This document shows positions 33,208-54,805 of a stretch of 64,000 nucleotides of DNA, one piece after another. The stretch comes from Actomonas aquatica (GTDB lineage Bacteria; Verrucomicrobiota; Verrucomicrobiia; Opitutales; Opitutaceae). Below the pieces are notes generated by a model. The model was not told the DNA's origin. It saw only the letters and a list, made by a program, of their open reading frames with translations, and made no database searches. Each line of letters starts with the position of its first letter. Position 1 is the stretch's first letter. A program made the position numbers and the translations under genes. The stretch lies in assembly GCF_019679435.2 (NCBI RefSeq), contig NZ_CP139781.1, positions 2,790,001 through 2,854,000 on the forward strand, written 5' to 3'.

Positions 33208-33669
33208 TCAGACCTTCTGGTAGGTCGGCGAATCACGCAGGTCGCGCACGATGTCGTGGCTCTTCTGCACCTCGACATACTGACGCTGCACCAGGTCGGC
33301 CGCGATGGGATCGATGAAGGTTTCGACCGCGTCGCGATACGCCGCCAACGCGTGGTCTTCACCGCGCTCGCACTCCGCGAGAATCGTGTGGTTGTCCTTG
33401 GTGGTAATCGCCTCACGCAGCTTCATCCAGCCACGGTGAGCCTTGGCCGCCATGGAGCCGGAGTCTTCGGCTTCCTCGCCGAGCTGGTGCACGCAGGTGC
33501 GCAGAGCCTGGGCAAAACCCTGACGCTGCTCGCTCAAGCGGCGGAAGATTTCCTGCAGCTCCGGACGGTCGACGGCCGAGGCCGCTTCGCCGAAGCCGTC
33601 GGCGCCATCGCAGCAGATTTCGATGAGGTTGTTGAGGGTGGAGACGGTTTCTTCACTGATGGTTTTCAT
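33208..33669 (-). CDS. DUF2383 (PA2169-type) ferritin-like helical protein
   Basis: A 153-residue helical protein beginning MKTISEETVSTLNNLIEICCDGADGF, with repeated acidic and histidine positions typical of the DUF2383/PA2169 four-helix bundle. The function is not established; family members are often found among stress genes. The next gene upstream on the same strand encodes a paralogue of identical length. I took the ATG at 33669 because the alignment with the paralogue begins there; the open frame continues upstream in antisense to that paralogue but is not meaningful. Confidence 0.88.
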   Translation of the reverse strand: MKTISEETVSTLNNLIEICCDGADGFGEAASAVDRPELQEIFRRLSEQRQGFAQALRTCVHQLGEEAEDSGSMAAKAHRGWMKLREAITTKDNHTILAECERGEDHALAAYRDAVETFIDPIAADLVQRQYVEVQKSHDIVRDLRDSPTYQKV

Positions 33670-33778
33670 ATGGATCGTTGGGTTGAGGGGTTCGCGTTTC
33701 GTGAGAACAGGCGGCGCGATCGGGACTCGATCACTGGGTCCGCCCAAAGTGGAAAAATGGGGTTCGGCGCAGCAGGCT

Positions 33779-34240
33779 TCAGCTGGCGCGACACATGCGC
33801 TCGTAACGCCACGTGCGCAGCTGCTCGTGGGAGACTTGAACCTCGATCGCCTGCGCCCGCACCACCTGCACCACGTCCGGTTCGACGAGCGTGGCCAAGC
33901 CGTCGCGATAGGCCGATAGTGCGAGCTCCTCGCCCCGCTCGCAGTCCTCCAGGATCGTGATGGCGTTGCGGGTCGAGATCGCATCGCGCAGCGACATCCA
34001 CACCCGATGCACCGCGCCGCCCAAGGAGCCGCTGCCAAAAGGCTCACCGTTTTGTCGCAGCACACACTGGCGCAGTTCGCCCACAAAACGGGTCCGCTGG
34101 CCGCTCAGATCATACAACATGCGCTCGAGCTTGGAGTCACCGACCGCTTCCGCTGCCGCATGAAATCCTTGGGCGCCATCGCGGCAGACCTGGATCAGCT
34201 CATTGAGGGTATCGATCGTGGTGAGGGTGGTTGTAGTCAT
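33779..34240 (-). CDS. DUF2383 (PA2169-type) ferritin-like helical protein, paralogue
   Basis: A 153-residue protein of the same family as its downstream neighbour. Both start with a run of threonines/serines then TLNxLIxxCxDGAxGFxxAA, and keep the pattern CERGE(E/D)xALxAYRD near residues 105-120. The two were probably produced by tandem duplication. There are no membrane or export signals. The upstream region (34241-34723) is long and may hold a regulated promoter. Confidence 0.88.
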   Translation of the reverse strand: MTTTTLTTIDTLNELIQVCRDGAQGFHAAAEAVGDSKLERMLYDLSGQRTRFVGELRQCVLRQNGEPFGSGSLGGAVHRVWMSLRDAISTRNAITILEDCERGEELALSAYRDGLATLVEPDVVQVVRAQAIEVQVSHEQLRTWRYERMCRAS

Positions 34241-34723
34241 TTTTTGGATATGGGTTAAACATCACGTCAGGGGTTACGCCGACGCAGCTACCCACCCTGT
34301 CGCGATCCCCGTGCCAGGAATTCCACCAAACATTTTTCCTGCTCATCATGAGAACCTTACCAATTTTTCCGGGGAAATGGCGGCGCCCTCTCCCCGTCAT
34401 TTTGCGCGACGAATTCTGGGCAAAATCGACAATGTGCAATCCGCGCCATTTCACGACGCATGCGCCTCTGAATCGCCGTTCCACAAAAATTTTTTCGCGC
34501 CACCGGTGTCCGGATCTCAGCCCCACGGCAGCAATACCCCAAGCTCCGTCCGGCAAAGGAGTTACTTTGCTTCCTGCGCAGTTTCCCTGACGCGTGCGCC
34601 CTCATTTTTCGGGCAGATTGCAAAGCCGGCCCGCGCAGATGATCGCATTCTGCAAGCCGCGACTCAATCCGGTGCCAGCCGCAGCAGAACCAGATTCAAT
34701 CCGTCGCGGTCGAACGGGTCGTC
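34241..34723. other. long divergent intergenic region
   Basis: No gene is supported here. It is the shared upstream region of the DUF2383 pair (leftward) and the lipoprotein gene (rightward). Two weak pairs resembling the TGCA-N3-YGCA sites are present. One is at 34395-34407 and 34427-34439 (CGTCATTTTGCGC and CGACAATGTGCAA, 32 bp apart). The other is at 34618-34630 and 34650-34662 (TTGCAAAGCCGGC and CTGCAAGCCGCGA, 32 bp apart). Each has mismatches in the half sites. Confidence 0.5.
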
Positions 34724-35176
34724 ATGAATACCACTCGCACCCTCCTTCCCGTGCTGGCCGCGGCCGGCCTCCTGCTCTCCACCGGTTGCGCGTCCTTTGA
34801 GTCACGCACCGAGGAAAAGGCTTACGTCTTCAACTCCCTTCCCGTCGAAACCAAACAGCGACTGGAAGAAGGTGAGATCCATATCGGAGACACCCCCGAC
34901 ATGGTCTACATCGATCTGGGCGAGCCGTCTGACAAACGCTCGACCGTCACCGCCGACGGCCAGACGTCCACCTGGATTTATGCGTCCTACTCCCGTGAAT
35001 ACGAGGGCGAGAACTTCGTCGGTTATCGCCGCGTGGTGACCCGCGATAGCCTCATCGGCGGTTACCGCGTGGCCTACGTGCCGGTCTCCGAATCGATCTA
35101 TTCCGAGAACGTCGACGAACGATTCCGGGTCACCTTCCGCGACGGCAGCGTCACCGCCATCGAGACCAACGCCTGA
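34724..35176 (+). CDS. small outer-membrane lipoprotein, SmpA/BamE-like
   Basis: A 150-residue lipoprotein. The lipobox LSTGC places the lipidated cysteine at residue 22. The mature part contains HIGDTPDMVYIDLGEPSDKR (52-71), which matches the SmpA/OmlA fold pattern (G-x-T-x-x-x-V-x-x-x-L-G-x-P), then a mostly beta region. BamE-like proteins help assemble outer membrane proteins or stabilise the envelope; a true BamE role is not proven. The SYLF gene follows 45 bp later, in the same direction, and is likely cotranscribed. Confidence 0.82.
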   Translation: MNTTRTLLPVLAAAGLLLSTGCASFESRTEEKAYVFNSLPVETKQRLEEGEIHIGDTPDMVYIDLGEPSDKRSTVTADGQTSTWIYASYSREYEGENFVGYRRVVTRDSLIGGYRVAYVPVSESIYSENVDERFRVTFRDGSVTAIETNA

Positions 35177-35221
35177 GGCCCGCTCTTCGTATTCTTTATT
35201 AAACTACAACCCACCCACATC

Positions 35222-35791
35222 ATGAACCTGTCCACCAAACTGCTCCGCGGCCTTGGCGCCGCGCTCCTCGTCGGCCTCCTCAGTCTGGAAGTGCGCGCCG
35301 CCGATATCGAAGATGAACGCAACGAGATCCGCGCCATGCGCGACGAGGTCCTCGCCGACCTCTACGAACTCGCCCCGCAAGCCGAAGGCCGCATCAAGAA
35401 GGCCGAAGGTTACGCCGTGTTCTCCAACGTCGGCATCAACGTCATCTTTGCCTCCTTCGCCGGTGGTCACGGCCTCGTGGTCGATGACAGCGGCGAGGAA
35501 ACCTACATGAAGATGGGCTCCGCCGGTCTCGGCCTGGGCCTCGGCGTGAAGGATTTCCGCGGCGTGTTCGTCTTCTACGACGAGAAGGCACTCAACGACT
35601 TCATCGAATACGGCTGGGACTTCACTGCCCAAGCCGACGCCGCCGCCAAGTCGGAAGACAAGGGCGGCCAATTCGGCCTCGCCGGCAACCCCAAGGGCGC
35701 CGTGGAGGTGTTCCAGTTCACCAAGAACGGCCTCGCCCTCCAAGCCACCCTCCAAGGCACCAAATACTGGCGGGACGCCGCCCTGAACTGA
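35222..35791 (+). CDS. SYLF/YSC84 domain protein, exported
   Basis: A 189-residue protein with a signal peptide (about 1-26, ending VRAAD). The rest has the SYLF (YSC84) pattern: AEGYAVFSNVGINV, then GGHGLVVDD, GSAGLGLGLGVKDFRGVFVF and the C-terminal KNGLALQATLQGTKYW. SYLF domains bind phosphoinositides in eukaryotes; in bacteria the family is envelope-associated with unknown detail. A strong terminator follows. The pairing with a lipoprotein gene suggests an outer membrane role. Confidence 0.88.
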   Translation: MNLSTKLLRGLGAALLVGLLSLEVRAADIEDERNEIRAMRDEVLADLYELAPQAEGRIKKAEGYAVFSNVGINVIFASFAGGHGLVVDDSGEETYMKMGSAGLGLGLGVKDFRGVFVFYDEKALNDFIEYGWDFTAQADAAAKSEDKGGQFGLAGNPKGAVEVFQFTKNGLALQATLQGTKYWRDAALN

Positions 35792-36048: not shown

Positions 36049-36717
36049 ATGAACATCGCCACTTCCCCCTTCTCCCTCACCAACGCCAACGACGATCGCA
36101 GCCTGGTGGCTCGCTTCCAAGGCGGCGACGAATCCGCTTTCGCCCAGATCGTCCGGACTCACCGTGACCGCATCTACGGTTACGTGCGCAACATGCTCCG
36201 CGACGAGACCGATGCCGAAGAGGTCACGCAGGACACCTTCGTCCGCGCCTACCGCGCCCTCGGTCGTTTCCGCGGCGATGCCTCCCTCACCACCTGGCTG
36301 CACCGCATCGCCACCAACCTCGCCCGCAACCGCTACTGGTATTTCTTCCGCCGCCGTCGTCAGGACACCATCTCCCTCGATTGGACGGCCCCGGATTCCG
36401 ACCAGAGCCCGATCGGCGAAAGTTTCGTCTGCGACGAGCCCGACCCCTGCCAACAGTCCACCAAGGAGGAATTCCTCGGCGCCGTCCGCGAGAGTCTCGC
36501 CGAGATCGATCCCATCCTCCGCGAGCCGCTCGAGATGCGCGCCGGCAAGGGCATGAGCTACGCCGAAATCGCCAAGCTCACCGGCGTGCCCACCGGCACC
36601 GTGAAGAGCCGCATCTCCCGCGCTCGCCGCGACCTCCGCACCCACCTCGCCGAGCGCATGCCCGATGTCGAGGACACCGACTCCTTCCGCGAGGTCTTCG
36701 TCGCCGATCGTCGCTGA
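36049..36717 (+). CDS. ECF-type RNA polymerase sigma factor
   Basis: A 222-residue sigma-70 family protein. Region 2 (about 25-95) contains DAEEVTQDTFVRAYRALGRF and the -10-recognition part DASLTTWLHRIATNLARNRY. Region 4 (about 155-210) holds MSYAEIAKLTGVPTGTVKSR, a typical helix-turn-helix. No regions 1.1 or 3 are present, so it is of the extracytoplasmic function type. No anti-sigma gene is adjacent. It is preceded by a paired palindrome and followed within 45 bp by a glycosyltransferase gene, so it may control or be cotranscribed with the next two genes. Confidence 0.94.
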   Translation: MNIATSPFSLTNANDDRSLVARFQGGDESAFAQIVRTHRDRIYGYVRNMLRDETDAEEVTQDTFVRAYRALGRFRGDASLTTWLHRIATNLARNRYWYFFRRRRQDTISLDWTAPDSDQSPIGESFVCDEPDPCQQSTKEEFLGAVRESLAEIDPILREPLEMRAGKGMSYAEIAKLTGVPTGTVKSRISRARRDLRTHLAERMPDVEDTDSFREVFVADRR

Positions 36718-36761
36718 TTCGCCGGCCCCTCCGCCTCCCCTCCCTCCCCTCTTCCCACACC

Positions 36762-38078
36762 ATGAACATCGGACTCTTCACCAACACCTTTTTGCCGCAT
36801 GTCGGAGGCGTCGCTCGCTCGACGCAGACCTTGCTCGAGGATCTGCGCCGTCTCCGTCACCGCGTGCTGGTGGTGGCACCGGAGTTCGCCGAGGGCACTG
36901 CCCCGCGTCGCATCGAGCGTTCCGTCGAGCGCGTGCCGGCCGTCAGTAATTTCAACGGCAGTGATTTCTCCGTGCGCCTGCCCCTCGGAGCCGCGCTCAA
37001 CAAACGCCTCAACCACTTCGAGCTGGATCTCATCCACGCGCACCACCCTTTCCTGCTCGGCGATACTGCCCTGCGCGTGGCCGCCGAACGGGGCGTGCCC
37101 GTCGTCTTCACTCACCACACGCTCTACGAGCAATACACCCACTACGTGCCCTTCGACTCACCCGCGCTGCGCGACTACGTGATCGAACTCTCCACCCGCT
37201 TCGCCAACTGCTGTGAAGGCGTGATCGCGCCCAGCGAAAGCGTCGCCGACCTCATTCGCTCCCGCGGTGTCACGACGCCCATTCGCGTCATCCCCACCGG
37301 CATCGACACCGCCAAACTTTCCTCCGGCCGCCGCGACCGCTGGCGCAAGAAACTCAAACTGCAGGACGACGATATCCTCTTCGGCCACGTCGGTCGCCTC
37401 GCCCCCGAAAAGAATCTCGAATTTATGGCCGAGGGCCTCGCCCGTTGCCTCAGCCGCAACGACAACGCCTACGCCATCATCGTCGGCGACGGCCCGTCCC
37501 GTCCTGACATGGAACGCATCTTCGGCGAACGCCGTGTGCTGCATCGCGTCCACTTCGCCGGCCAGCAAACCGGCCGCGCCCTCCACGACGCCTACGCCGC
37601 CATGGATGCGTTTGCCTTCGCCTCTCACAGCGAAACTCAGGGCATGGTCGTCGCCGAAGCCATGGCCGCCGCCAACCCCGTGATCGCGCTCGACGCCTCC
37701 GGCGTGCGTGAAGTCGTCACCAACAACCGCAACGGTCGCCTGCTCAAAGCCGATGCCTCCACCGAGGCCTACGCCCGCGCCCTCACCCAGCTCGTGCGCA
37801 ACCACGAGGCCCGCCAGCGCTGGACCGCCGAAGCCACCGTCACCGCCGCCCGCTTCGACCGCCAGCATACCGCCGCCGAAGTCGTCGACTACTATCAACA
37901 GCTGATCGAGCAACGCCGCGGTTCGCCCTCCTCCGAGCACCCCGACATCTGGGACCGCCTCCTCGACCGTATCGCCGTCGAGACGCGGCTCCTCGGCGAC
38001 AAGTTGGGCGCCGCCATCAACACCGTCACCTCTCGCCTGAGCCACCATCCGTCCGAGCCGATGGCCGAGGCCTCCTGA
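36762..38078 (+). CDS. glycosyltransferase family 4 (diacylglycerol glucosyltransferase-like)
   Basis: A 438-residue GT-B enzyme. The N-terminal domain starts MNIGLFTNTFLPHVGGVARS and includes HAHHPFLLG and FTHHTLYEQYTHY, similar to enzymes that make glucosyl- or mannosyl-lipids. The C-terminal nucleotide-sugar domain carries the EX7E motif, E291 and E299, in SETQGMVVAEAM. Family members transfer a sugar from a nucleotide donor to a lipid or glycan at the inner membrane face. The ATG at 36762 starts exactly at the first strand. The next gene starts 32 bp after the stop, so an operon is likely. Confidence 0.92.
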   Translation: MNIGLFTNTFLPHVGGVARSTQTLLEDLRRLRHRVLVVAPEFAEGTAPRRIERSVERVPAVSNFNGSDFSVRLPLGAALNKRLNHFELDLIHAHHPFLLGDTALRVAAERGVPVVFTHHTLYEQYTHYVPFDSPALRDYVIELSTRFANCCEGVIAPSESVADLIRSRGVTTPIRVIPTGIDTAKLSSGRRDRWRKKLKLQDDDILFGHVGRLAPEKNLEFMAEGLARCLSRNDNAYAIIVGDGPSRPDMERIFGERRVLHRVHFAGQQTGRALHDAYAAMDAFAFASHSETQGMVVAEAMAAANPVIALDASGVREVVTNNRNGRLLKADASTEAYARALTQLVRNHEARQRWTAEATVTAARFDRQHTAAEVVDYYQQLIEQRRGSPSSEHPDIWDRLLDRIAVETRLLGDKLGAAINTVTSRLSHHPSEPMAEAS

Positions 38079-38110
38079 TCCGAATCCATCGGTTCGTCCC
38101 GCCTGCCACC

Positions 38111-40627
38111 ATGCTCGCCCGCCTCAACACCTACCTCCGCTACCTCCGCCGCAAGTTCAGTCGCGCCGACTGGTTTGCACGTCGCACCGGTCTCAAGTCC
38201 ACCACCGGCAGCGATCAACCCGGTCTGTTGCTCATCCAGATCGACGGTCTCTCCCGCCACGAACTCGAACGCGGCCTCGCCCAGAAAAAACTCCCCGGCC
38301 TGGCCCGTTTGCTCAAACGCCGTGGCTACAAGCTGCACGACTTTTATCCAGGCCTCCCCTCCAGCACGCCCGCCGTGCAGGGTGAGTTGCACTACGGCCA
38401 ACCCGCCGCCGTGCCGACCTTCAGCTTCCTCGACGACCGCGTCGATGCCATCGAGAAGATGATGCAACCCGGCCCGGCCAAACGCATCGAGGCCGACCTC
38501 GCCGCCCAGGCCGAGGGTCTGCTCAAAGGCGGCAGCTCTTGGTCCAACATCTACACCGGCGGCGCGAGCCAGGAAGAGAGCCACTTTTGTGGCGCCAGCA
38601 TCGGACTCGGCGACCTCTGGCGCACCGGCAAGCTGCGCAACATTCTCCTCTTCGCCTTTCTTCACTTTGGCTCCTTTCTGCGCCTCGTCGCCCTGTTGCC
38701 GGTGGAGATCGTGCTCGCCGTCGTGGACGCGATCCGCGGCGTCATCGCCGGCCGCCAACCGCTCGCCCGCGAGCTCGTTTTTGTCTTCGCCCGCGTCCTC
38801 GTCTGCGTCGGCCTGCGCGAACTCATCACCCTCGGTGCCAAGGTCGATATCGCCCGCGGCCTGCCCATCATCCACGTCAATTTCCTCGGCTACGATGAGC
38901 AGTCCCATCGTCGCGGACCGTCCTCCGCTTTCGCGCACTGGACCCTCAAGGGCATCGACCGCGCCATCACCCAACTGCACCGCGCCGCCCGCCGCGCCGA
39001 TCAACGCGACTACGAAGTCTGGATCTTTTCCGATCACGGCCAGACCCGCGCCACCCCCTTCCGCAAAAAGGTCGACGGCGGTCTCGATGCCCTCGTGCGC
39101 AAACACCTTCGCCGTCACGGCATCGAGCCCGACGCGGACGCCAACGCCTCCGTTCCCCGCGCCGACGCCAATCAGGGCCACACCAGTGCCGCCTTCCTCT
39201 TCCGCGGCCCTCGGGCCGAACGCCGCCTCGCTCGCGACACCGAACGATCCCGACTCTCGGTCTTCGAAAAGAAGGTCTTCGCCTTGGCCGCCATGGGACC
39301 GGTCGGCCACCTATACCTCGCGCAAACCCTGCCACCCGACCACCTGCGCCGCTTCGCCGCCGATCTCGTCGCCGATGGGCTGCCCGGCATTCTCGTGCCC
39401 CATGACGACGGCGAATCCGTCACCTGGCTCACGGCCCGGGGGGAATATCAGCTTCCGCGCGACGCCGATGTGCTGCCGCACGCCAAAGCCCTGCGTCCGG
39501 TCGTCGCCCGCGACCTTGCCGCGCTCGCCCACCATCGTTTCGGCGGCCAACTCGTCGCGCTCGGTTGGACACCCCACGGCGAGTCCTACACCTTTGCCGA
39601 CGAAAACGGCTCCCATGCCGGCGCGTCGCTCGATGAAACCGGCGCCTTCCTCCTGCTGCCGCACCACGTGCGGCCGACGGTCAAAGATCGTCCCATGCGT
39701 CCGCGCGAATTGCGCGCCATGGCCCTCACGCACCTCGGTCGCCTCTCCCCCGACGACGGCGGATCCCGCCCACCGTTCGCGCGCCGGACGCACGACGCGG
39801 CCGAGCCTGCCGCGCCTGCCGAGCCAGTCGAGGAGAAACCCGCCCTGCGTATCGCCACCCTGAATACGCACTCCTGCATCGGCATGGACGGACGCTGTTC
39901 GCCCAACCGCATCGCCCGGCTGATCGAAACCCTCGATGCCGATGTGATTGCGCTGCAGGAACTCGACGTCGGCCAATCCCGCTCTCGCGGCGAGGACCAG
40001 TTGCGCGAACTGTCCATTCGCACCGGCCTGCAATCGGCCTGGTGTCGCTGCCTCGATCTGGGGGACGGCGCCGCCTATGGCCACGGGTTGCTGAGCCGCT
40101 ATCCGATCCTTTCCGCCCACACCATTCGTCTGCCTCATCGAGGCAGCCTCGAGCAGCGGGCTGCGCTGCACTCCATCATCGATTTCCACGGCTCCCCGGT
40201 GCACGTGCTCAGCACCCATTTCGGCCTCACTCGCTGGGAACGCATCACCCAGGCGCATGCGCTGCTCGGCGACGAGGGACTCGGTCAGGTGCCCGCCACC
40301 GAACCCGTGGTGCTTTGTGGCGACCTCAATACCGCCGGCGGCTCCCCCTCCTACCGCGCCTTGGCTCGACGTCTACGCAACGTGCAGGCTCATTGCCCGC
40401 GCCACGTCGGTCGGCCGACCTTCCCGTCCGTGCTGCCGGTGCGCCAACTGGACCACATCTTTGTCTCACGCCATTTCGCCATCGCCAGCGTCTCCATCCC
40501 CCGCAACGAGCTCGCCGCCACCGCCACCGATCACCTGCCGCTCGTGGCCGAGCTGAAACTCAAAACGCCGCCACCTTCGTCGCCGGATTCGCCAACCGTC
40601 GCGGCATTCGCGACCGCCGCCGTTTGA
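38111..40627 (+). CDS. fusion of alkaline phosphatase-superfamily domain and endonuclease/exonuclease/phosphatase (EEP) domain
   Basis: An 838-residue two-domain hydrolase. The N-terminal alkaline-phosphatase-like domain (about 35-560) has metal and catalytic residues in place: D45 in QIDGLS, likely nucleophile T86 in SSTPAVQ, D262 and H266 in YDEQSH, D308-H309 in SDHG, and H357. A hydrophobic stretch (about 178-235) would anchor it to the membrane. The C-terminal EEP domain (about 578-815) keeps N585, E617, D738 and N740 in GDLN, and the final D807-H808. EEP domains cleave phosphodiester or phosphomonoester bonds in nucleic acids, sphingomyelin or inositides. With a lipid-type GT4 next to it, phospholipid breakdown is the most attractive substrate hypothesis. 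Confidence 0.9.
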   Translation: MLARLNTYLRYLRRKFSRADWFARRTGLKSTTGSDQPGLLLIQIDGLSRHELERGLAQKKLPGLARLLKRRGYKLHDFYPGLPSSTPAVQGELHYGQPAAVPTFSFLDDRVDAIEKMMQPGPAKRIEADLAAQAEGLLKGGSSWSNIYTGGASQEESHFCGASIGLGDLWRTGKLRNILLFAFLHFGSFLRLVALLPVEIVLAVVDAIRGVIAGRQPLARELVFVFARVLVCVGLRELITLGAKVDIARGLPIIHVNFLGYDEQSHRRGPSSAFAHWTLKGIDRAITQLHRAARRADQRDYEVWIFSDHGQTRATPFRKKVDGGLDALVRKHLRRHGIEPDADANASVPRADANQGHTSAAFLFRGPRAERRLARDTERSRLSVFEKKVFALAAMGPVGHLYLAQTLPPDHLRRFAADLVADGLPGILVPHDDGESVTWLTARGEYQLPRDADVLPHAKALRPVVARDLAALAHHRFGGQLVALGWTPHGESYTFADENGSHAGASLDETGAFLLLPHHVRPTVKDRPMRPRELRAMALTHLGRLSPDDGGSRPPFARRTHDAAEPAAPAEPVEEKPALRIATLNTHSCIGMDGRCSPNRIARLIETLDADVIALQELDVGQSRSRGEDQLRELSIRTGLQSAWCRCLDLGDGAAYGHGLLSRYPILSAHTIRLPHRGSLEQRAALHSIIDFHGSPVHVLSTHFGLTRWERITQAHALLGDEGLGQVPATEPVVLCGDLNTAGGSPSYRALARRLRNVQAHCPRHVGRPTFPSVLPVRQLDHIFVSRHFAIASVSIPRNELAATATDHLPLVAELKLKTPPPSSPDSPTVAAFATAAV

Positions 40628-44081: not shown

Positions 44082-45179
44082 GGGGTCAATCTTATATTCT
44101 TGAATCGCGTCCCCTCGCACGCGATCCCGCCTCGTCGGCTCAGTCCTTCACCTTGGCATCGAGGCGTTGGTAGGTCGCCAGCGCCTCTTCGCGATCGCCC
44201 CGCAGCGCCTCCACCACGTAGCGACTTACGCCACTCTCGTGGCCCATGCCCAGCCGTCGCGCCAGCCATCCGTTGGGCGCCATCTTGCGTTGCTTGAGCA
44301 GGGCCGCGATGCCAACTTTCCAATCGGCGGCCTTGGGTGTGGTCGCGATCTGCGTCTCCTTCTTTCGCAACACGCGCATGCACTTCACCAGCGTGGCTTC
44401 CCACACCTCGGCCCGCGCTTCCTTGGCCTCCTGATAGCTGAGCTCGGCGATCGCTCGCCGGGACTCCGCCTGCCCCGCCACCTGCTGCCGAAACTCCGCC
44501 CCGCCGATTACCCAGCCTTTGCTCATCTTCTCAAAGAGCATGTCTTTGCGCGCCGGTTCGTCGGTCTGCAACCAACGCAGGTAGTCGAGATAGGAGCGAC
44601 GGTCCGCCGGCCGATCCCGCAGGTTACCCGCCCCGCGCAACGCGACATCCACACGCAGCGCGGCAGGTCGATTGCGCGGCTGATCGAGATACCACAGACT
44701 GGACCACCGGTATTCCGCCAGCCGTGCCGCAGTGCACAATCCCGCCCGGAGCGGATTCAGATGAATGTAGTGACACAGCCAACTCAGGTGGTCCTCGTCT
44801 TCCACCGCCAAGCTCTTGAAGCGCCCCTGAAACAGGTGACCCGACTCTTTCCGAAAGCGGTTGAACCGAGCCGCAAACACACTCTGCAGCCACCGCATGC
44901 CTTCGCTCAGATTTCCATCCGGCGTTTCCAGCGCCAGGTGGTAGTGGTTGCTCATGATGCAGTAGGCGTGCAACACCCAGCCGGCTCGTTCGCAGGCCTC
45001 GAAGAGCGTGCGCTCGAAGGCTTCCTTGGCGCCTTCGGTCTCGAAGATCCATTCCTTGTAGTTGCCGCGGTTGAGGACGTGGTAAAGGCCGCCGGCCTGA
45101 TCGATACGCAAGGGTCTGGGCATGGCGATGAGTGAGGCGAAAGCACGATCTGACCGCAAGGATATAGGATTGACCCCTT
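44080..45179. mobile_element. REP-associated transposase element with 23-bp terminal inverted repeats
   Basis: The left end (44080-44102, starts AAGGGGTCAATC) and right end (45157-45179, ends GATTGACCCCTT) are inverted copies that differ at two of 23 positions. They enclose one HUH transposase gene. The layout fits a RAYT-type single-gene element. The left end coincides with the TAA stop of the preceding kinase gene. Confidence 0.82.
44140..45123 (-). CDS. REP-associated tyrosine transposase (Y1_Tnp, HUH)
   Basis: A 327-residue transposase. It begins MPRPLRIDQAGGLYHVLNRG, the canonical RAYT N-terminus. The HUH metal motif is H60-Y-H62 in IMSNHYHLAL and the nucleophilic tyrosine is Y119 in LCHYIHLNPLRAG. 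After the catalytic domain (about 1-150) comes a C-terminal helical part (about 190-327) that may bind DNA. Y1 enzymes nick and join single-stranded DNA at hairpins. The gene is complete and probably active or recently so. An upstream in-frame start at 45159 would lie inside the right terminal repeat and was rejected. Confidence 0.94.
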   Translation of the reverse strand: MPRPLRIDQAGGLYHVLNRGNYKEWIFETEGAKEAFERTLFEACERAGWVLHAYCIMSNHYHLALETPDGNLSEGMRWLQSVFAARFNRFRKESGHLFQGRFKSLAVEDEDHLSWLCHYIHLNPLRAGLCTAARLAEYRWSSLWYLDQPRNRPAALRVDVALRGAGNLRDRPADRRSYLDYLRWLQTDEPARKDMLFEKMSKGWVIGGAEFRQQVAGQAESRRAIAELSYQEAKEARAEVWEATLVKCMRVLRKKETQIATTPKAADWKVGIAALLKQRKMAPNGWLARRLGMGHESGVSRYVVEALRGDREEALATYQRLDAKVKD

Positions 45180-45648: not shown

Positions 45649-46152
45649 ATGAATAAAGCCAAACGCATCACCACTCTGCTCACCCTGAGTTCCGCCGCCC
45701 TGCTCTTCACCGCCTGCTCCGAAAAGCAGGAAGCCAACATGGAAGACGCCGTCGCAGACGCCAAGGCCGCCACCTCAGAAGCGTGGGAAGACACCAAGGA
45801 CGTCTCCGCCGAAGCTTGGTCCGAAACCAAGGAAGCGTGGAATGACCTCGCCGACGCCACCTTCGACGAACGCAACGCCTTCGAGGAAGGCATGCACAAC
45901 ATGGCCGAGTCCATCGACGAGAAGACCGATGCTCTCGCCGCCAAGTCCGAGGACATCTCCGACGAGATGGCCGACGAATGGGACGACGGTATGGATAACC
46001 TCCGCGAGGCCCGTTCCGAACTCGCCGATTCGCTCGACGACTTGGGCGACGCCACCGCCGACACCTGGGACGAAGCCAAGGACCGCGTGGCTTCCGCGTG
46101 GGAGAACGTGTCCGAGGCCTATGAGGACCTCGTCGACGACCTCCAGAGCTAA
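45649..46152 (+). CDS. acidic coiled lipoprotein, LEA/apolipoprotein-like
   Basis: A 167-residue protein with lipobox LFTAC (lipid cysteine at residue 23). The mature chain is a long amphipathic helix rich in alanine, aspartate and glutamate with tryptophans recurring about every 10-15 residues (AWEDTKD, AWSETKEAW, TWDEAKD, AWENVSEAYED). This resembles late-embryogenesis-abundant and apolipoprotein-type surface-coating proteins. I infer a role in outer membrane or desiccation stability; there is no exact family assignment. A terminator follows. Confidence 0.85.
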   Translation: MNKAKRITTLLTLSSAALLFTACSEKQEANMEDAVADAKAATSEAWEDTKDVSAEAWSETKEAWNDLADATFDERNAFEEGMHNMAESIDEKTDALAAKSEDISDEMADEWDDGMDNLREARSELADSLDDLGDATADTWDEAKDRVASAWENVSEAYEDLVDDLQS

Positions 46153-46381: not shown

Positions 46382-48661
46382 ATGACTTCCTGGCTCCCTT
46401 GGCGCTTCCTGATCAGCCGCATTGCCCGCCGTCGCGGCTTCCTCGACCCGGTCACGGTGCTGGCCCGCCTGCGCCAGTTCTCCCAACCATCGGAGGTCCA
46501 GGAACCCATTGAGCTGATCCGCGCCGGCGTTGCCTTTCACGCCCGCGGCCTCGTCAACACCAAGGTCCTCCAAAACAACCTCGACTGGGTTTGGCCCTAC
46601 TGGGCCAGCCGGCAGTTCGACCCCACCGACCCCGCTTTTCTGCCCCGGGCTTTTTCCTTCACCCACGTCAATCTGACTCACCGCAACTGGACCGCGCTCG
46701 GGCTCCCGGGCATGGACGCCTACCCGATCGTCGATCCCCGCGGCCTCGTCACCCCCTTGCTCGATGGCTGGTCCATTGACTGGTGGTTCCTCCCCCGCGC
46801 CCACGATGAAGACGTCCCCGCGCTCTTCCCCTCACGCTGTCGCGAAGCCGACCAACAGTTGCACCTTGAGCCGGAACTCGAGGTGCGCACCACCACCGCC
46901 GACGCCACCGGCACCCAACTCGTGACCCGCGCCCGCGTGCGCCCGTCCGCGCTCAATTCCCGCGTGCCCGAGCTCGTGCTCGACGCCGCCCTCACCGCCG
47001 CGCACGACGGTTACCTCGCTTGCGCCATTCGCCCGGCCAATCCGGAGGGCGTGAGCTTTATCGACGAACTTAAACTGGTTGAAGACACGCTGCACGTGAA
47101 CGGCACCGAAGCCCTCCAATGGTCGCAACCGCCCCGTTGGGTCACCTCCAACTACGAACGCGGCGACATCGCCGGCATCGCCCATCACGAGGGCATCCCC
47201 GAGCGCACGCCCCCGACCGTCTCCTGCCCTGCCGGCCTCGCCACCGGGGCCGCCCTCTTCCCGGTGCAAGCCGGCACACCGATTTCCATCGAGGCGCGCA
47301 TGCCGCTGCCGGAGACCGAACTCAAACGCCAGCCCACCACGCCCGAGCTGACCTGGAGCGAAGCCCTCGCCGCCGCCCCCCGTATCAAATCTCCCGATAC
47401 GCACTGGAACTTTCTGCACGACGCCGCGCTGCACACCCTGCACCTGCTGTCGCCGCACGACATCTACCCGGGTCCCTACACCTATCGCCGATTCTGGTTC
47501 CGCGATGCCTGCCTCATCCTCAACGCCCTGCTCGCGGCCAACGAAATCGACCGCGCCCGTGCCTTGCTCGAAACCTTCCCCGAGCGCCAAAAGAGCGACG
47601 GCTACTTTCACTCCCAGGAAGGTGAATGGGACGCCAACGGTCAGGTGCTCTGGATTGCCGACCGCGTCGAACAAGCCGGCGGCCACCTGCTCCCGCAAAA
47701 ACTCTGGCGCGACCTCGCCCGCGGCGCCGACTGGTTCCGCCTCAAGCGACTCCATGCCGACGGCAAACCCCACGACGGCCTGCTGCCGCCGGGCTTCAGT
47801 GCCGAGCACCTCGGCCCCAACGATTATTATTACTGGGACGACCTTTGGGCCCTTGCCGGCCTCCGCGCCGCTGCCCAGATGGCGACCCGCCGCGGCGAGA
47901 CTCAAGCTGCCCAGACCTGGACCAACGAAGCTGACAATCTCGCTCACGCGCTCCAACGCAGCTTTGCCAAAATCCCCGCCGATGTTACCCGCCACGGTGT
48001 GCCCGCCTCCCCCTATCGCCGCATGGATTCCGGCGCCATCGGCACCATGGTGGGCGATTACCCGCTGCAGCTCGACGAGCTCGGGCCGGAACACTTTACC
48101 CGCACGGCCGATTGGCTCAGCGAGCATTGCCTTCACCGCGACGGCTTTTTTCAGGACATGATCCACTCCGGCGTGAACGCCTACCTCACGCTCGACCTTG
48201 CCCAGACCCTACTCCGGCACGATGACCCGCGTTACCTGCGCTTGGTGCAGGCCGTGGCCGACGCCGCCTCGCCCACCGGCCAATGGCCGGAAGCGATTCA
48301 CCCGCACACCGGCGGGGGCTGCATGGGCGATGGACAACACGCCTGGGCCGCCGCGGAGTGGATGCTCATGATGCGCGCACTCTTCGTGCGCGAGGAACGC
48401 GACCACCTCGTCATCGGCGCCGGCCTGCCGGCAGCTTGGTTCGACCAACGCGAAACCAACGAACTGCACTACGGTCCGACCGCCACCAAATGGGGACCGG
48501 TCACGGTGAGTCTGCAGCGCAGCGAATCGGGCAGCACCTGGCGCGTGAAGGTGACCGGCGATTGGCACGGTGAAGCGCCGCGCATGGAGGTCACGATCCC
48601 CTGCTTCCAAACCTTCGCGCTCGCCAAGGAACAAAACCCCGTCGCGCTGGAGCGCGCCTGA
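46382..48661 (+). CDS. six-hairpin glycosidase-like protein (GH15/GH63-type fold)
   Basis: A 759-residue protein with a beta-rich N-terminal region (about 1-320) and an (alpha/alpha)6 barrel (about 335-690). Recognisable barrel motifs are RRFWFRDACLILNALL (D375), QEGEWDANGQVLW (E413/E415, D417), YYYWDDLWALAGL and WPEAIHPHTGGG (E637), with acidic residues where this fold has its catalytic pair. It resembles amylo-alpha-1,6-glucosidase- and GH63-like enzymes, but I cannot name its substrate. No signal peptide is seen, so it is probably cytoplasmic and could act on storage glucan or trehalose-like compounds. Confidence 0.82.
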   Translation: MTSWLPWRFLISRIARRRGFLDPVTVLARLRQFSQPSEVQEPIELIRAGVAFHARGLVNTKVLQNNLDWVWPYWASRQFDPTDPAFLPRAFSFTHVNLTHRNWTALGLPGMDAYPIVDPRGLVTPLLDGWSIDWWFLPRAHDEDVPALFPSRCREADQQLHLEPELEVRTTTADATGTQLVTRARVRPSALNSRVPELVLDAALTAAHDGYLACAIRPANPEGVSFIDELKLVEDTLHVNGTEALQWSQPPRWVTSNYERGDIAGIAHHEGIPERTPPTVSCPAGLATGAALFPVQAGTPISIEARMPLPETELKRQPTTPELTWSEALAAAPRIKSPDTHWNFLHDAALHTLHLLSPHDIYPGPYTYRRFWFRDACLILNALLAANEIDRARALLETFPERQKSDGYFHSQEGEWDANGQVLWIADRVEQAGGHLLPQKLWRDLARGADWFRLKRLHADGKPHDGLLPPGFSAEHLGPNDYYYWDDLWALAGLRAAAQMATRRGETQAAQTWTNEADNLAHALQRSFAKIPADVTRHGVPASPYRRMDSGAIGTMVGDYPLQLDELGPEHFTRTADWLSEHCLHRDGFFQDMIHSGVNAYLTLDLAQTLLRHDDPRYLRLVQAVADAASPTGQWPEAIHPHTGGGCMGDGQHAWAAAEWMLMMRALFVREERDHLVIGAGLPAAWFDQRETNELHYGPTATKWGPVTVSLQRSESGSTWRVKVTGDWHGEAPRMEVTIPCFQTFALAKEQNPVALERA

Positions 48662-48819: not shown

Positions 48820-49053
48820 TCAGCGCATCACCGAGCGGAAGGCGCTGAAACCGACGCGCCACCAGCGCGGCAGGAACGGCCCCACCCAGTGGTCGATCTG
48901 ATGCACCCAATGCAACAGGTTGGAGGAGCGGGTGCGACGCCGCGCCCGCATGCGCTTCACCTTCCAATGCATGCGATCGCAGGTGCATTCTAGCACGAGC
49001 CAACGCTTCTTTTCGGCTAAAGTCATCGGGGCGGATTCAGGGAGCGCTTTCAT
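48820..49053 (-). CDS. small basic hypothetical protein
   Basis: A 77-residue frame rich in tryptophan, arginine and histidine, for example HWVHQIDHWVGPFLPRWW near the C-terminus. Third codon positions are nearly all G or C, as in neighbouring genes, which favours a real gene. I recognise no family. An internal ATG at 49026 would give 68 residues starting MTLAEKKRW. An overlapping frame in another register could be the coding one instead, so confidence is modest. Confidence 0.42.
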   Translation of the reverse strand: MKALPESAPMTLAEKKRWLVLECTCDRMHWKVKRMRARRRTRSSNLLHWVHQIDHWVGPFLPRWWRVGFSAFRSVMR

Positions 49054-49110
49054 CGAGGTAGTCTTTCGTTTGGTAAAGTGAATGGCGTAGCGGGACGACG
49101 TCCGGCAGCG

Positions 49111-49563
49111 CTAGAGATCGGCGCTTTCCATCGAGGCCTGAGTCGCATCGGATGCAGGGGACGGCCCCGCGCTCCGCGAGCCACGAAACTGGCTCATCTC
49201 ATCCTTCAACGCGTCCAGATCCTGCAGGATCTGCCGCCGCGTTTCGGCAAACGGTTCCCAATTCGCCAGAGTATTCCACACACGCCAGCCGAGTCCGATT
49301 GCGAAAAGGATGACCACCCCACCGGCAATGGCCGGCGCGATCACGCGCCATTCGGTGTCCCAAGTCGACGCCACCAGAACCAGGAGCAAGGCCCCCATCG
49401 CGGTTTGCACCATAGCGCCAAACAGCAGCGCCGCAAACACCGCCGTGCGGGCTTCTTGCCGGGCTTCGGTCGCTTCCACCGCCGCCAAATCCCAACGGTT
49501 GCGCAACGCCCGGCCCATCGTGCGTTCGTTTTCTTCCGGGATCGAGGTGTGGTTGGTTTCCAT
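49111..49563 (-). CDS. DUF1469/YqjE-like holin-superfamily membrane protein
   Basis: A 150-residue protein with two hydrophobic helices (about 43-65 and 73-97), flanked by charged helices, the layout of YqjE (phage holin 3-6 superfamily). The N-terminus is acidic and the C-terminus ends in a polar serine/alanine tail. It is encoded 138 bp after the DUF883 gene, the same arrangement as yqjD-yqjE in enterobacteria. The family is stress-linked with no known catalytic role. Confidence 0.8.
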   Translation of the reverse strand: METNHTSIPEENERTMGRALRNRWDLAAVEATEARQEARTAVFAALLFGAMVQTAMGALLLVLVASTWDTEWRVIAPAIAGGVVILFAIGLGWRVWNTLANWEPFAETRRQILQDLDALKDEMSQFRGSRSAGPSPASDATQASMESADL

Positions 49564-49701
49564 GACGTTTGTTGGCTGGGGTTTCCCTCACCCGCCTGAC
49601 GCACGCGAAACCGCACCCGTGCGGGGTGCGGCTCGCGCAACATCAACTACTACTAACTAGTTCGTGAAGCTGGACGAAGTTCACGATCGTGAGCGCCGCG
49701 C

Positions 49702-50043
49702 TCAGGCGGCTTTGCGGGAAGAGCTGGCGAGCACACCGATCAGCGCGCCGATGCCGGCTGCGATACCGACGGCATGATAAGGATGGGTGCGCACGTAGTC
49801 GTCGCACTGCGTGAGCTGTTCCTGCGCGCTTTCCTTGGCCTTGAGCGTGGCCTCACGCGCCTTCTGGGTGACCTTCTCGGCGCGGTCGCGGCCGACGGAA
49901 ATCAATTCGTTGAGACGGTCGGTGAGGTGGCTGGCCTTTTCGTCGGCCTCGCCGCCCTTTTCGGCGAGCAGCACTTCGGCTTCACGCATGAGGGAACGCA
50001 GTTCGTTGGTGGCGGATTCGATATCAGGTTTCTTAGCTTTCAT
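49702..50043 (-). CDS. DUF883 (ElaB/YqjD-type) ribosome/membrane-associated protein
   Basis: A 113-residue protein: a long charged coiled-coil (about 1-85) with a single C-terminal hydrophobic anchor (AVGIAAGIGALIGVLAS) near 92-108, as in ElaB/YqjD/YgaM. These tail-anchored proteins bind ribosomes and the inner membrane in stationary phase and under stress. The motif DDYVRTHPYHAVGIAAG matches the conserved anchor region. It is likely cotranscribed with the DUF3185 gene upstream. Confidence 0.92.
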   Translation of the reverse strand: MKAKKPDIESATNELRSLMREAEVLLAEKGGEADEKASHLTDRLNELISVGRDRAEKVTQKAREATLKAKESAQEQLTQCDDYVRTHPYHAVGIAAGIGALIGVLASSSRKAA

Positions 50044-50136
50044 GGTATTTGTGGTTTGGATACTTGGGTTGAGCTTAACCCCTGTCCCGTAGCGGGGAAC
50101 GCCCGGGGCAAGGGCGGTAAAGCGGTGTCTGAATGG

Positions 50137-50349
50137 TCAGGCGTTGGTGCGACCGCCGGATCGCAGGAGGCCGATGCCTCCGCCCACCGCGGCGATGGCG
50201 CCAAGCGTGGTGAGGGCGATGCTCTTGTTGGAGGGCGCGTCATTGACGACCTCCGAGACCGCGGAGCCGATTGAGTCGGAGGCCTCCAAGCCGAAGTAGA
50301 CCAGGATCAGGCCGACAATGAGAATGAGGAGCGGGAAGAGTTTGTTCAT
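50137..50349 (-). CDS. DUF3185-like small membrane protein
   Basis: A 70-residue protein with two transmembrane helices (about 4-22 and 45-63) separated by a polar loop ASDSIGSAVSEVVNDAPSNKS, which matches the DUF3185 pattern. It is the first gene of the leftward stress set DUF3185-DUF883-DUF1469. A TGCA-N3-YGCA site lies about 155 bp upstream, with a weaker one 33 bp nearer. Confidence 0.85.
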   Translation of the reverse strand: MNKLFPLLILIVGLILVYFGLEASDSIGSAVSEVVNDAPSNKSIALTTLGAIAAVGGGIGLLRSGGRTNA

Positions 50350-50471
50350 GACGAGATTTGGTTAACGCCCTTCCTAGTGCTTCGCCCATGCCAGCCTATA
50401 CCCCCAATCCCGTTTCCCACTCGCTTCCTGTGCTTTATGTAATTTACAACTAATTCCCCAAAAACAGATTC

Positions 50472-50517
50472 GGGTATTTTGCATGACCCTCCAGCCGTGC
50501 GATCGTGCATTACGCAC
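50472..50517 (-). promoter_or_regulatory. TGCA-N3-YGCA site pair upstream of the DUF3185 stress operon
   Basis: GTGCATTACGCAC at 50505-50517 is a full match. GGGTATTTTGCAT at 50472-50484 keeps only its right half but lies at the characteristic 33 bp. Read toward the leftward gene at 50349, the C-type site is distal and the T-type site proximal, as in the rightward pairs. Confidence 0.5.
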
Positions 50518-50537
50518 GCACCATTTCCGCCAGCAGC

Positions 50538-51509
50538 TCAGTCCTCGTCGTCGACAAGGCGCCGACGCGTGAGCGCGAAATCAAAACTGCGTTGCAGGAG
50601 CATGGTCACCGCCAACAGCAGCGCTCCCCAACGCATCTCGGTCTTCATCAGGTGATCGCCCTCCAGTGCGAAAACTGCGAGGGCCAAGCCAAACACTTCC
50701 AACATGCTCCAACGCCGGAGCCCGGCCGCCCACACGTTGAGCTCGTCGTTGTCGTCACCTCCGCGCAACCGCCACCACGACGCAAAACTCAACATCCAGG
50801 CCGCCACCGGAGTGCCGACCAAAAACAGTCCGGCGAGCACCGCCGCCAGCCAGGCCCCTTCGGTCCACAATACCGGCACAAGACCAACGATGCTGTAATC
50901 CCGATCCACCAGTCGCCAGTCCGCCACCCCCAGAAACGGCAGGCTCAGCGTGGCGCCCAAGGCGAAGCCGGAGCACAACAGCCACGACCCGCGCGGCGGA
51001 ATCGGCGGACGATCATTCTCGCCTCGGCTGGGTCGCAACGCGGCCGACAAAACCTCCCCCGCCGCCATGCTCAAAAGTATCGCCGTAATGAAGAGCGGAA
51101 TACCCATGAGCGGCGTCGCCCCCACAAACACTTGGTCGGAAGTCAGCACCAGAATCAGGCACACCAAAAATACATCCAGCATCGACCACTTGGCCAGACG
51201 CTCCGCCCAGTGCAGCCACTCCCGCAGACGCGCATCCGGCTTACCCGCCAGCGTTACCGCCGCCAGCACGGCCAGTTTGGCAAAGGGAAACACGACCGAG
51301 AACGCGACCACCAGAATCGCGAGCACGTAGAGCCCGCTGCTCCAAAACATCTGCACCGAACGGAAAAGCGAATACGGCTCCGTCATCACGCCCCGGCGCA
51401 GGTCCATGAACGGCACGAAGAGCACCGCCAGGTTGCACAGAAACGACACCAGCAACACCACCGCGACGCTCCAACGCAGACCGCGGTCGAGTTCCTCCCC
51501 CTTAGCCAT
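50538..51509 (-). CDS. paraquat-inducible protein A (PqiA) family membrane protein
   Basis: A 323-residue membrane protein with eight or so hydrophobic segments arranged in two halves. Each half includes the family pattern, WSMLDVFLVCLILVL in the first and WSMLEVFGLALAVFAL in the second. PqiA proteins work with PqiB/MCE proteins in lipid transport across the envelope, but no MCE gene is present here. Its ATG overlaps the stop of the mechanosensitive channel gene by 8 bp, so the two are coupled. This suggests a joint envelope-stress function. Confidence 0.9.
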   Translation of the reverse strand: MAKGEELDRGLRWSVAVVLLVSFLCNLAVLFVPFMDLRRGVMTEPYSLFRSVQMFWSSGLYVLAILVVAFSVVFPFAKLAVLAAVTLAGKPDARLREWLHWAERLAKWSMLDVFLVCLILVLTSDQVFVGATPLMGIPLFITAILLSMAAGEVLSAALRPSRGENDRPPIPPRGSWLLCSGFALGATLSLPFLGVADWRLVDRDYSIVGLVPVLWTEGAWLAAVLAGLFLVGTPVAAWMLSFASWWRLRGGDDNDELNVWAAGLRRWSMLEVFGLALAVFALEGDHLMKTEMRWGALLLAVTMLLQRSFDFALTRRRLVDDED

Positions 51510-53943
51510 CGCCGCCCTCCTCATTCTTGCGCGGCGCCTGCATGGCCGACTTCGCCTCCTCCGGTTCCGCCGCCTCGTCATCATCGCGGTCGCCATCGCC
51601 CTCCTTCGACGCCTGCGGGTCCACCGCCTGCCGCGAGCGGCGGGTCAGCTCGATCTGCAACGGCGCATCGGAGTCGAAATGCAGGTCACGCTGCGGGAAG
51701 GCGATCACGATGCCTTCCGCGGCAAACGCCTCGGCGATCGTGTGGCGCACTTCGTTGAGCGCCTTCAGTCGGTCGTCCAAGCGCGTGTGCAGGATCGCCA
51801 GAAAGTTGAGCGAGTTGTCGCCGAACGCATCAAACAGCACGATCGGCTCCGGGTCATCCAGCACCACATCGAGGTCGTCCAATACCTTGTGCAGGAGCTT
51901 CTCCACCTTGCGTGTGTCGGTCCCGTAGGCCACGCCCACCGCCACCTTCTGGCGCACCACATCATCGGACAGCGTCCAATTGGTGACCGACTGTTCAATC
52001 AATCGTGAGTTCGGCACCACGATGTGCGTGTTGTCGAAAGAGCGCACCACCGTGCTGCGCATGCCGATGCGCTCCACCCAATACTGCTCGTCGTCGAACT
52101 CGATCAACGCTCCCTCCGTGATCGGGCGTTCGACCAGCAGGATGATACCGCTGATGAAGTTATTGAGCAGGTTCTGGGAGCCAAAACCCAGCCCCACCGC
52201 CAGCGCACCGCTCACCACCGAAAACTGGGTGAGCGAAAGGTGAAAGAGGCTGAAAATGCTCAGCACGATGAAACACAGGAAACCGTAGTAGAGCAGCGTG
52301 CGCCACGCCGCCGCGCGCCCCCGACTCCACTTAAAACGACTCACCGCCACGTCACTGGCCAACGAACTGATCCGTCGCGCCGTCAGCGCGCCCAGCATGA
52401 CGAGCAGGCCGACCGCCAGCAGGGTGCGCACGCGGAACGGCTGATCATCGACTGTGAACAGCTCCCACATCCAGATTGTGGATACAGTGCGTTTGATCGA
52501 CGGCCAGGCATCCTCCCAGGTCGGCCACACCGTCACGCCCAGACGACCCAATTCCTCCTGCAGACGCTCGCGCACCGCGATGAGGTCCTGCAGCTCGGAG
52601 TGCTCGATCTCGCCTACTTCGACCCAAGCTTTCGCGGCCGCCAAGCTACGTTGACGCGCCTCACTCTCCGCCCCAGCTCCCCGCTCCACCACGCGGCGGG
52701 TGCGGATGAGTTCAAACAAATGCTGACGACGCGCGTTGCGCAGCCTCTCCAGCTCAGCGTCGTTTCGCTCCGCCAGCTGTTCCGCAGTGTCCTCGTCCAT
52801 CTCGCCAAAAAGAACGTCGAGTCGCTGCGCTTCGACCGCCGCCATGGTTTCCAGTCGCGCCAACTGCCGACCGAGCAAAGCCAGGCGACCACTCTCCAAA
52901 CGACGCGTTTGCCGCCACGCCTCCAACTCGCCATTCTCCTCCACCGCGGCATCACCGCTGTCCACCTCCGACTCCAGACGCGCCAAGGTGCTCGACGCTC
53001 GAGCAGCCGTCTCACGCGCATCCGTGTGGGCCTCGCGCAAGCGCTCTTCGCGCGCGGCCCGGTCGCGTTGACGCGCCGCCTGCCCGGCACTGTCTCGCAC
53101 CAGGTGCGATACAACCCACTCGATTCGCGGTTGAACCAATTCGAGCCGCGGACCAATCAAATCCTCCTGCAACTGCAGCGTCGCCAATTCAAAATCGCGC
53201 AAGCGCAAGGTCTGCTCCGCGACCGTGCTTTGCAGACGAGCGAGATGCTGCCCGGCCAGATGCTCGCCCGGATTGTCCTCCGCCTCCTCCTCTTTAAGGC
53301 GGCGTTGTTTTTCCGCTTCATCAAACGCATCCTGCGCCGCCTCCCGGCCATCTTCGGCGTTTTCGAAATCACGTTCCAACCAGCGCCGCGTGCGCTCCAA
53401 CTCGTCGCGTTGGTCATAGAGGGACTCGAGGGCTGCAAAGGTCGGACGCACCGCGATGCCGTCGCCCAATTCCCCCTCGTCTTCCCGCTGTCGCTGGAGC
53501 TCCGCTTGCTCCGCCTGCAGGTCTTCCCGCTCGCCCACTGCGCGCAATTGATCCCCGTAGATCCGCTCCAGCTCCTCCAGCAGGCGAATTTCCTCCGCCA
53601 GCGTCTTCGCCTCCCCACTGCCCGCCTCGATGTCAGCAGACTCGAGCGCATCTCGCCGCTCCTGCAGATTCGCCCGTGCCGCCGCCCGCTTCCGCTCAAT
53701 GGTCTCCGCCTGCAGCGTGGGTTGCTCCTCTTCTCCGTCCGCATTTTTACCGTCGGCTTGGCCTGAGCCATCCGCGGACGATTCATCGGCCGCGGCGCTG
53801 GCCGCGGGCCCCATCACCTCTTCGACCAAGGCGTTGGACTGCGCCCACACGCCAACCACTCCCCACCCCAAGCAGAGGGGAAGCAGGGACCGGAAGATCA
53901 ACCGAAGGCGTGAGCTGGAAGGCGGACAGGCCATCGCCGACAC
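51502..53943 (-). CDS. MscS-family mechanosensitive channel with long coiled-coil N-terminus
   Basis: An 813-residue protein. The signal peptide (about 1-35, ending VWAQ) is followed by a very long charged coiled-coil (about 75-500), then transmembrane segments (about 535-635) and an MscS channel domain with the pore helix SVVSGALAVGLGFGSQNLL and the beta domain RSFDNTHIVVPNSRLIEQSV. The C-terminal tail is acidic. It resembles the large MscK/MscM-type channels with periplasmic domains, which release solutes under osmotic downshock and may sense the cell wall. It is coupled to the PqiA gene. Confidence 0.92.
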   Translation of the reverse strand: MSAMACPPSSSRLRLIFRSLLPLCLGWGVVGVWAQSNALVEEVMGPAASAAADESSADGSGQADGKNADGEEEQPTLQAETIERKRAAARANLQERRDALESADIEAGSGEAKTLAEEIRLLEELERIYGDQLRAVGEREDLQAEQAELQRQREDEGELGDGIAVRPTFAALESLYDQRDELERTRRWLERDFENAEDGREAAQDAFDEAEKQRRLKEEEAEDNPGEHLAGQHLARLQSTVAEQTLRLRDFELATLQLQEDLIGPRLELVQPRIEWVVSHLVRDSAGQAARQRDRAAREERLREAHTDARETAARASSTLARLESEVDSGDAAVEENGELEAWRQTRRLESGRLALLGRQLARLETMAAVEAQRLDVLFGEMDEDTAEQLAERNDAELERLRNARRQHLFELIRTRRVVERGAGAESEARQRSLAAAKAWVEVGEIEHSELQDLIAVRERLQEELGRLGVTVWPTWEDAWPSIKRTVSTIWMWELFTVDDQPFRVRTLLAVGLLVMLGALTARRISSLASDVAVSRFKWSRGRAAAWRTLLYYGFLCFIVLSIFSLFHLSLTQFSVVSGALAVGLGFGSQNLLNNFISGIILLVERPITEGALIEFDDEQYWVERIGMRSTVVRSFDNTHIVVPNSRLIEQSVTNWTLSDDVVRQKVAVGVAYGTDTRKVEKLLHKVLDDLDVVLDDPEPIVLFDAFGDNSLNFLAILHTRLDDRLKALNEVRHTIAEAFAAEGIVIAFPQRDLHFDSDAPLQIELTRRSRQAVDPQASKEGDGDRDDDEAAEPEEAKSAMQAPRKNEEGGDG

Positions 53944-54000
53944 GGACCGTCAATCCGACGAACGGTTCTCGCCGGTCGCCCTCTGGCGAGTTGCAGGCAC

Positions 54001-54030: not shown

Positions 54031-54056
54031 GGGCAAAGCGATTGGGTTCGTCGACC

Positions 54057-54772: not shown

Positions 54773-54805
54773 CGACTCAAATGGTCGCGTCCGCGCCCGC
54801 GGCGT

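Follow-up and report, generated by a model that had tools for sequence, protein, structure and literature searches.

A 64,000-nucleotide stretch of Actomonas aquatica DNA (contig NZ_CP139781.1, positions 2,790,001 to 2,854,000, hereafter the window) encodes a GT4 glycosyltransferase and, directly downstream, a protein in which an AP/NPP-type phosphodiesterase is fused to an EEP-type phosphoesterase. This gene pair recurs in at least 10 bacterial phyla, commonly together with a GH15-like protein and, in many loci, a DedA/VTT membrane protein. On balance, we favor the view that the unit serves the synthesis and turnover of membrane glycolipids and is a widespread module of this kind. An earlier note on this DNA, made from the sequence alone, had grouped an ECF sigma factor gene, the GT4 gene and the fusion gene as a possible lipid-remodelling unit. 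All three genes are present on the + strand of the window, in that order, with measured gaps of 44 bp and 32 bp. Their coordinates, together with those of the fusion's parts and of the third conserved partner, are as follows.

36049..36717, + strand: ECF sigma factor, 222 aa (PF04542/PF08281)
36762..38078, + strand: GT4 glycosyltransferase, 438 aa, ATG start, diacylglycerol-glucosyltransferase-like (PF13439/PF00534)
38111..40627, + strand: AP/NPP-type phosphodiesterase fused to EEP-type phosphoesterase, 838 aa (PF01663 + PF03372)
38111..39745, + strand: AP/NPP domain of the fusion (invariant columns; NPP structures reached by profile)
38666..38857, + strand: hydrophobic helix pair, residues 186-249, inside the AP domain (hydropathy, structure model)
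39839..40564, + strand: EEP (DNase I-fold) domain of the fusion, residues 577-818 (PF03372, PF23226, Foldseek)
46382..48661, + strand: GH15-like protein, ~750 aa, third conserved partner (1008 bits to the family alignment)

The GT4 and the phosphoesterase fusion

Full-length fusions occur in 16 of 115 related genomes, Actomonas aquatica included; in its own genome the gene is present as a single copy, the other match being only an EEP-only gene (34% identity). A scan of genome contigs returned 345 relatives of the fusion, and the linkage counts given here cover the best 80 of these 345. The 80 loci come from Verrucomicrobiota, Gammaproteobacteria, Desulfuromonadales/Desulfobacterales, Nitrospirota, Nitrospinota and Omnitrophota, and further from Planctomycetota, Fibrobacterota, Riflebacteria, BRC1 and Chloroflexi. 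A GT4 gene adjoins the fusion gene in 74/80 loci, and in 72/75 of those with 1.5 kb or more of DNA upstream. An even sampling of 388 genomes of the phylum gave 15 with the fusion, of which 14 carry a GT4 gene close by, the exception being genome G110. Moreover, GT4, AP and EEP domains are joined in one reading frame in four Omnitrophota loci (L097, L105, L107 and L108; 1,210-1,250 aa), with the Pfam domains shown for two of the four (tri-fusion coordinates L105:8693-12325 and L107:6792-10541). Pairwise distances of the fusion, GT4 and GH15-like proteins correlate with one another (r = 0.91, 0.96 and 0.91; 55 loci), whereas 500 permutations of the labels gave no value above 0.19. Such co-divergence fits inheritance or transfer of the unit as one. 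These data bear out the supposition of the earlier note that the fusion and its GT4 neighbour belong together: the fusion is found mostly beside a glycosyltransferase, not away from one.

Both parts of the fusion exceed their Pfam cut-offs, with 46.0 bits for PF01663 (cut-off 23) and 81.3 bits for PF03372 (cut-off 24.5). Across 85 aligned full-length homologues, the AP/NPP metal ligands and nucleophile (D45, T86, D262, H266, D308, H309 and H502) and the EEP catalytic set (N585, E617, H703, D738, N740, D781, D807 and H808) are invariant, confirming the complete active sites of two phosphoesterase superfamilies that had been read from the single sequence. AlphaFold modeling with the family alignment gave a mean pLDDT of 88.4 and a pTM of 0.90, and this model replaced one computed from the single sequence without an alignment (pLDDT 36). 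In the model, helices 186-212 and 218-249 form a hydrophobic pair inside the AP domain, with hydropathy peaks of 2.17 and 1.95 and the conserved charged residues E199, E221, R228, R236 and E237 within it. This pair corresponds to the membrane segment described earlier and is likely a membrane anchor; at least one hydrophobic segment is present at its position in 82/85 homologues. An N-terminal hydrophobic segment or signal peptide was found in 0/85 homologues. The extracytoplasmic placement usual in characterised PF01663 members is thus not matched by the fusion; a secreted or extracytoplasmic domain is a habit of most characterised AP/NPP members and no strict family criterion. Because a signal peptide is absent and a nucleotide-sugar-dependent GT4 is fused upstream in Omnitrophota, the simplest reading places both phosphoesterase domains in the cytosol.

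A profile of the AP domain reached the bacterial NPP structures 2gsn and 7mw8 (E ~2e-4) and, weakly, NPP6 (5ege). Foldseek with the whole model gave EEP structures alone among the top 50 PDB matches, and a Foldseek comparison with viral proteins likewise gave essentially EEP structures alone. The fusion shares with the NPP family, which includes the choline-phosphoester enzyme NPP6, PF01663 and the full set of metal ligands and threonine nucleophile, but differs in its absent signal peptide, in the helix pair inside the domain and in its C-terminal EEP domain. At the threshold applied to the 388-genome sample, all AP domains were accompanied by EEP; EEP does occur alone.

For the EEP domain, the profile scored 106 bits against E. 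coli YbhP, compared with 27 against XthA (exonuclease III) and 17 against YafD. The nearest stand-alone EEP proteins (329-339 bits) belong to one Verrucomicrobiota genus (L152, L153 and L154), and their genes directly adjoin a phospholipase D-type gene whose product is ~32% identical to E. coli ClsB. Seven loci have genes of the same phospholipase D family at a distance of 0.6-6 kb from the fusion, and E. coli ybhP itself shares an operon with clsB. The earlier note had named nucleases as the closest EEP relatives that would speak against its proposal. Since the domain is nearer to YbhP than to exonuclease III among the proteins tested, and since its stand-alone relatives sit beside ClsB-like genes, this is not what was found; the gene context of the EEP relatives instead points to lipid substrates. 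PF23226, the C-terminal domain of PGAP2IP, is likewise matched by the EEP part above its cut-off (33.7 vs 27), with scores of 39.1 in L107 and 39.6 in L154. PGAP2IP/CWH43 is a GPI-lipid remodelling protein, with a role in yeast cited in PMC6686924, and so offers a membrane-lipid remodelling context; the fusion differs from it in being bacterial, in lacking the PGAP2IP membrane part and in its attached AP domain.

Among NCBIfam models, the GT4 best matches alpha-monoglucosyldiacylglycerol synthase (MGlcDAGSynMgs, NF049988), over nearly the full model length and with 146 bits against an equivalog cut-off of 400, which indicates a different subfamily. The second-best model, N-acetylglucosaminyl-PG synthase (GlcN-PG synthase), is also far under its cut-off. 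In its own genome the GT4 is the top scorer for NF049988 (146 vs 111 and 101 bits), a model that gives matches in 14/14 control genomes. Solved relatives include BshA, PimA and TarM. The best model, a diacylglycerol glucosyltransferase, supports the earlier description of a glycolipid-type GT4, though with a score far under that model's cut-off.

In one locus (L125, genome G058; 11317-12593), the match to the GT4 beside the fusion is split into two parts that lie in different reading frames, possibly owing to a frameshift or an assembly error.

The GH15-like and DedA/VTT partners

The GT4 and the fusion were correctly recognized as members of the unit in the earlier note, which missed two further partners, a GH15-like protein encoded in the same window and a DedA/VTT protein. 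The GH15-like gene lies upstream of the GT4 gene in 55/69 loci with more than 4.2 kb of upstream DNA. It stands directly beside the GT4-fusion pair in most other genomes, and ~5.8 kb downstream of the fusion gene in the window. Across phyla, members of this family share 47-77% identity with the reference member. The segments WFRDA, GEWD-NGE and WPEAIHP resemble, by eye, the active-site regions of glycoside hydrolase family 15, and E466 and E627 (L060 numbering) are invariant in the family alignment, their match to the GH15 catalytic glutamates being made by eye alone. The window protein scores 19.9 bits against PF00723, under the cut-off of 22, and scans of two further members gave a weaker PF00723 match or none. 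A profile of the family compared with three GH15-type sequences gave a 29-residue local match, for which the reference alignment is thin, and a PDB profile search with the family returned no match.

Two histidine kinases, an IS200-type transposase and a small lipoprotein are encoded between the fusion and the GH15-like gene in the window. Two of these genes are placed as follows.

44140-45159, - strand: IS200-type transposase gene, between the kinases and the GH15-like gene
45649-46152, + strand: small lipoprotein, immediately preceding the GH15-like gene and carrying apolipoprotein-like helical repeats

The order fusion, kinase, lipoprotein, GH15-like is common to three relatives, and the small lipoprotein upstream of the GH15-like gene is kept in L118, L119 and L121. 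The transposase may explain the separated position of the GH15-like gene in the window.

A DedA/VTT gene (PF09335), or one of the PF06695 type, which is homologous to it (PMC7818093), lies within 5 kb of the unit in 37/58 full-context loci. In the same-genus genome G001 (L118), a DedA gene at 12440-13075 lies between the sigma and GT4 genes and overlaps the GT4 start. The VTT partner has a weak NCBIfam match to UptA (E 0.002).

Proposed function and alternatives

Based on these findings, we infer a scheme for the unit, including its lipid substrate, its cytosolic side, and the order and direction of its reactions. First, the AP-EEP protein, presumably anchored through its hydrophobic helices to the cytosolic side of the inner membrane, would hydrolyse phosphoester bonds of a glycerophospholipid-type substrate, removing the head group and possibly yielding diacylglycerol. 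The GT4, judging by its family, would subsequently transfer a sugar from a nucleotide sugar to the resulting lipid. Where present, the DedA/VTT protein may move product or substrate across the bilayer, as its family suggests, and the GH15-like protein, going by its weak family resemblance, may remove or trim an alpha-linked sugar. It is the finding of the GH15-like and DedA partners that extends the picture from head-group removal and glycosylation to a fuller scheme of synthesis, turnover and translocation. A more ambitious version, which we offer tentatively, is an undescribed glycolipid pathway, horizontally spread and crossing phyla, in which GT4, AP/NPP and EEP chemistry might be channelled in one cytosolic membrane-bound complex with a dedicated GH15-like protein and DedA transporter, so as to make or recycle a lipid; in Omnitrophota the three activities would reside in one enzyme of 1,200 aa.

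Several observations weigh against a glycolipid role. The GT4 does not come near the cut-off of any characterised equivalog, NF049988 included, and there are soluble-acceptor enzymes among its solved relatives. Foldseek matches of the EEP domain (4ruw, 3g6s, nocturnin, TDP2 and mannosyl-6-phosphatase) are mixed in chemistry, comprising NADPH phosphatase, DNA repair and sugar phosphatase enzymes, so the fold does not settle the EEP substrate. The sub-threshold PF00723 match is the sole family signal of the GH15-like protein. GT4 is absent in three loci with enough upstream sequence, and the linkage counts rest on the most similar 80 of the 345 relatives. Finally, DedA/VTT was undetected in 21/58 full-context loci; in the window there is no DedA gene between the sigma and GT4 genes, and a close homologue was not found in the genome.

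A polyprenyl-phosphate glycan pathway would assign the same proteins differently: the GT4 would extend an undecaprenyl-linked sugar, DedA would recycle undecaprenyl phosphate, the AP-EEP protein would cleave a polyprenyl-phospho-sugar or pyrophosphate, and the GH15-like protein would trim the glycan. Some DedA proteins, such as UptA, do transport undecaprenyl phosphate, although the match of the VTT partner to UptA is weak, and GT4 and glycoside-hydrolase-like partners suit glycan work. However, other genes for glycan assembly, flippases or polymerases are not conserved beside the unit, and the EEP relatives accompany ClsB-like phospholipase D genes instead. We consider this pathway rather unlikely.

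The proposal of the earlier note, lipid remodelling under phosphate starvation, appears unlikely in its turn. It would have the AP-EEP protein strip first the head group and then the phosphate, and the GT4 glycosylate the diacylglycerol, in analogy to PlcP-Agt. The juxtaposition of a phosphoesterase with a glycolipid-type glycosyltransferase, as in plcP-agt loci (PMC4796936), and the two complete phosphoesterase sites are consistent with it. A Pho box was looked for in the window, where none exceeded chance, and upstream of 69 units, where the mean best match was 9.03/14 compared with 8.92 expected and 0 units had a match of at least 12. Nor are pho or pst genes recurrent among the conserved neighbours of the unit, and the GH15-like partner would be left unexplained. 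A phosphate-limitation role is accordingly not supported.

Soluble glycoside metabolism, for example of the osmolyte glucosyl-glycerol, seems quite improbable. Here, the GT4 would make a phosphorylated glycoside, the AP/EEP protein would dephosphorylate it and the GH15-like protein would hydrolyse it. A glycosyltransferase, a phosphatase and a glycosidase are indeed the common layout of soluble glycoside pathways, a mannosyl-6-phosphatase is among the EEP relatives, and the neighbours in this genus are of a stress type. Against this stand the hydrophobic helix pair, which almost every fusion has, and the recurring DedA/VTT partner, and such a pathway needs no two separate phosphoesterase domains. 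A nucleic-acid or defence function of the AP-EEP protein is very improbable: nucleases exist within the EEP fold and a weak GT4-conflict Pfam match is under its cut-off in the window and over it in two GT4-AP-EEP tri-fusions, but XthA scores far below YbhP, the conserved neighbours are of metabolic type, and PADLOC models match no part of the unit.

For the glycolipid module that we favor, the closest working analogue is plcP-agt, of which the unit is not a member. In both, a phosphoesterase gene lies beside a glycosyltransferase gene, in Phaeobacter and SAR11 giving diacylglycerol for glycolipids (PMC4796936). In the unit, the AP-EEP fusion replaces PlcP, a Pho box is absent, GH15-like and DedA partners are added, and the GT4 is fused in some phyla. 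The E. coli ybhP-clsB-ybhN operon similarly places an EEP protein, the best match of three E. coli EEPs, beside a membrane-lipid enzyme, but without an AP domain, GT4 or GH15-like protein. PlcP is a calcineurin-like enzyme. Neither an NCBIfam model over its cut-off nor a PADLOC model identifies the fusion or its GH15-like partner, and full-text searches, with subscription papers outside their scope, turned up related systems only and no account of this gene set. Thus, the unit is apparently undescribed; its component families are known and their arrangement appears new. It gives a context to YbhP-like EEP proteins and to a highly conserved ~750-aa family that lies under every Pfam cut-off, and it suggests candidate partners for DedA-type transporters, which often have no known cargo. 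If the unit makes a glycolipid, it would give Verrucomicrobiota, Rheinheimera/Arsukibacterium, methanotrophs, Nitrospirota and Omnitrophota a way to non-standard membrane lipids that bypasses PlcP.

The ECF sigma gene and its surroundings

The sigma gene, which the earlier note had counted as part of the unit, adjoins it in this genus only. Genes for the sigma factor, SYLF, the lipoprotein and DUF2383 proteins accompany the unit solely in the same-genus genome G001 (L118). A strong sigma match lies near 1/80 other loci, on the opposite strand and 4.8 kb away, and there was no match near the remaining 79, which rules out the sigma gene as an integral part beyond the genus. Because it stands beside the unit in this genus only, it is best read as a local addition outside the conserved unit.

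33208-35791 and 48820-55975 of the window: genes flanking the unit, namely SYLF, two DUF2383, DUF883, holin-like, DUF3185, PqiA, MscS-type and Band 7

These flanking genes look like an envelope-stress set, and in this genus the ECF sigma gene has probably placed the unit among envelope-stress genes. The flanking genes may constitute the regulon of the ECF sigma factor.

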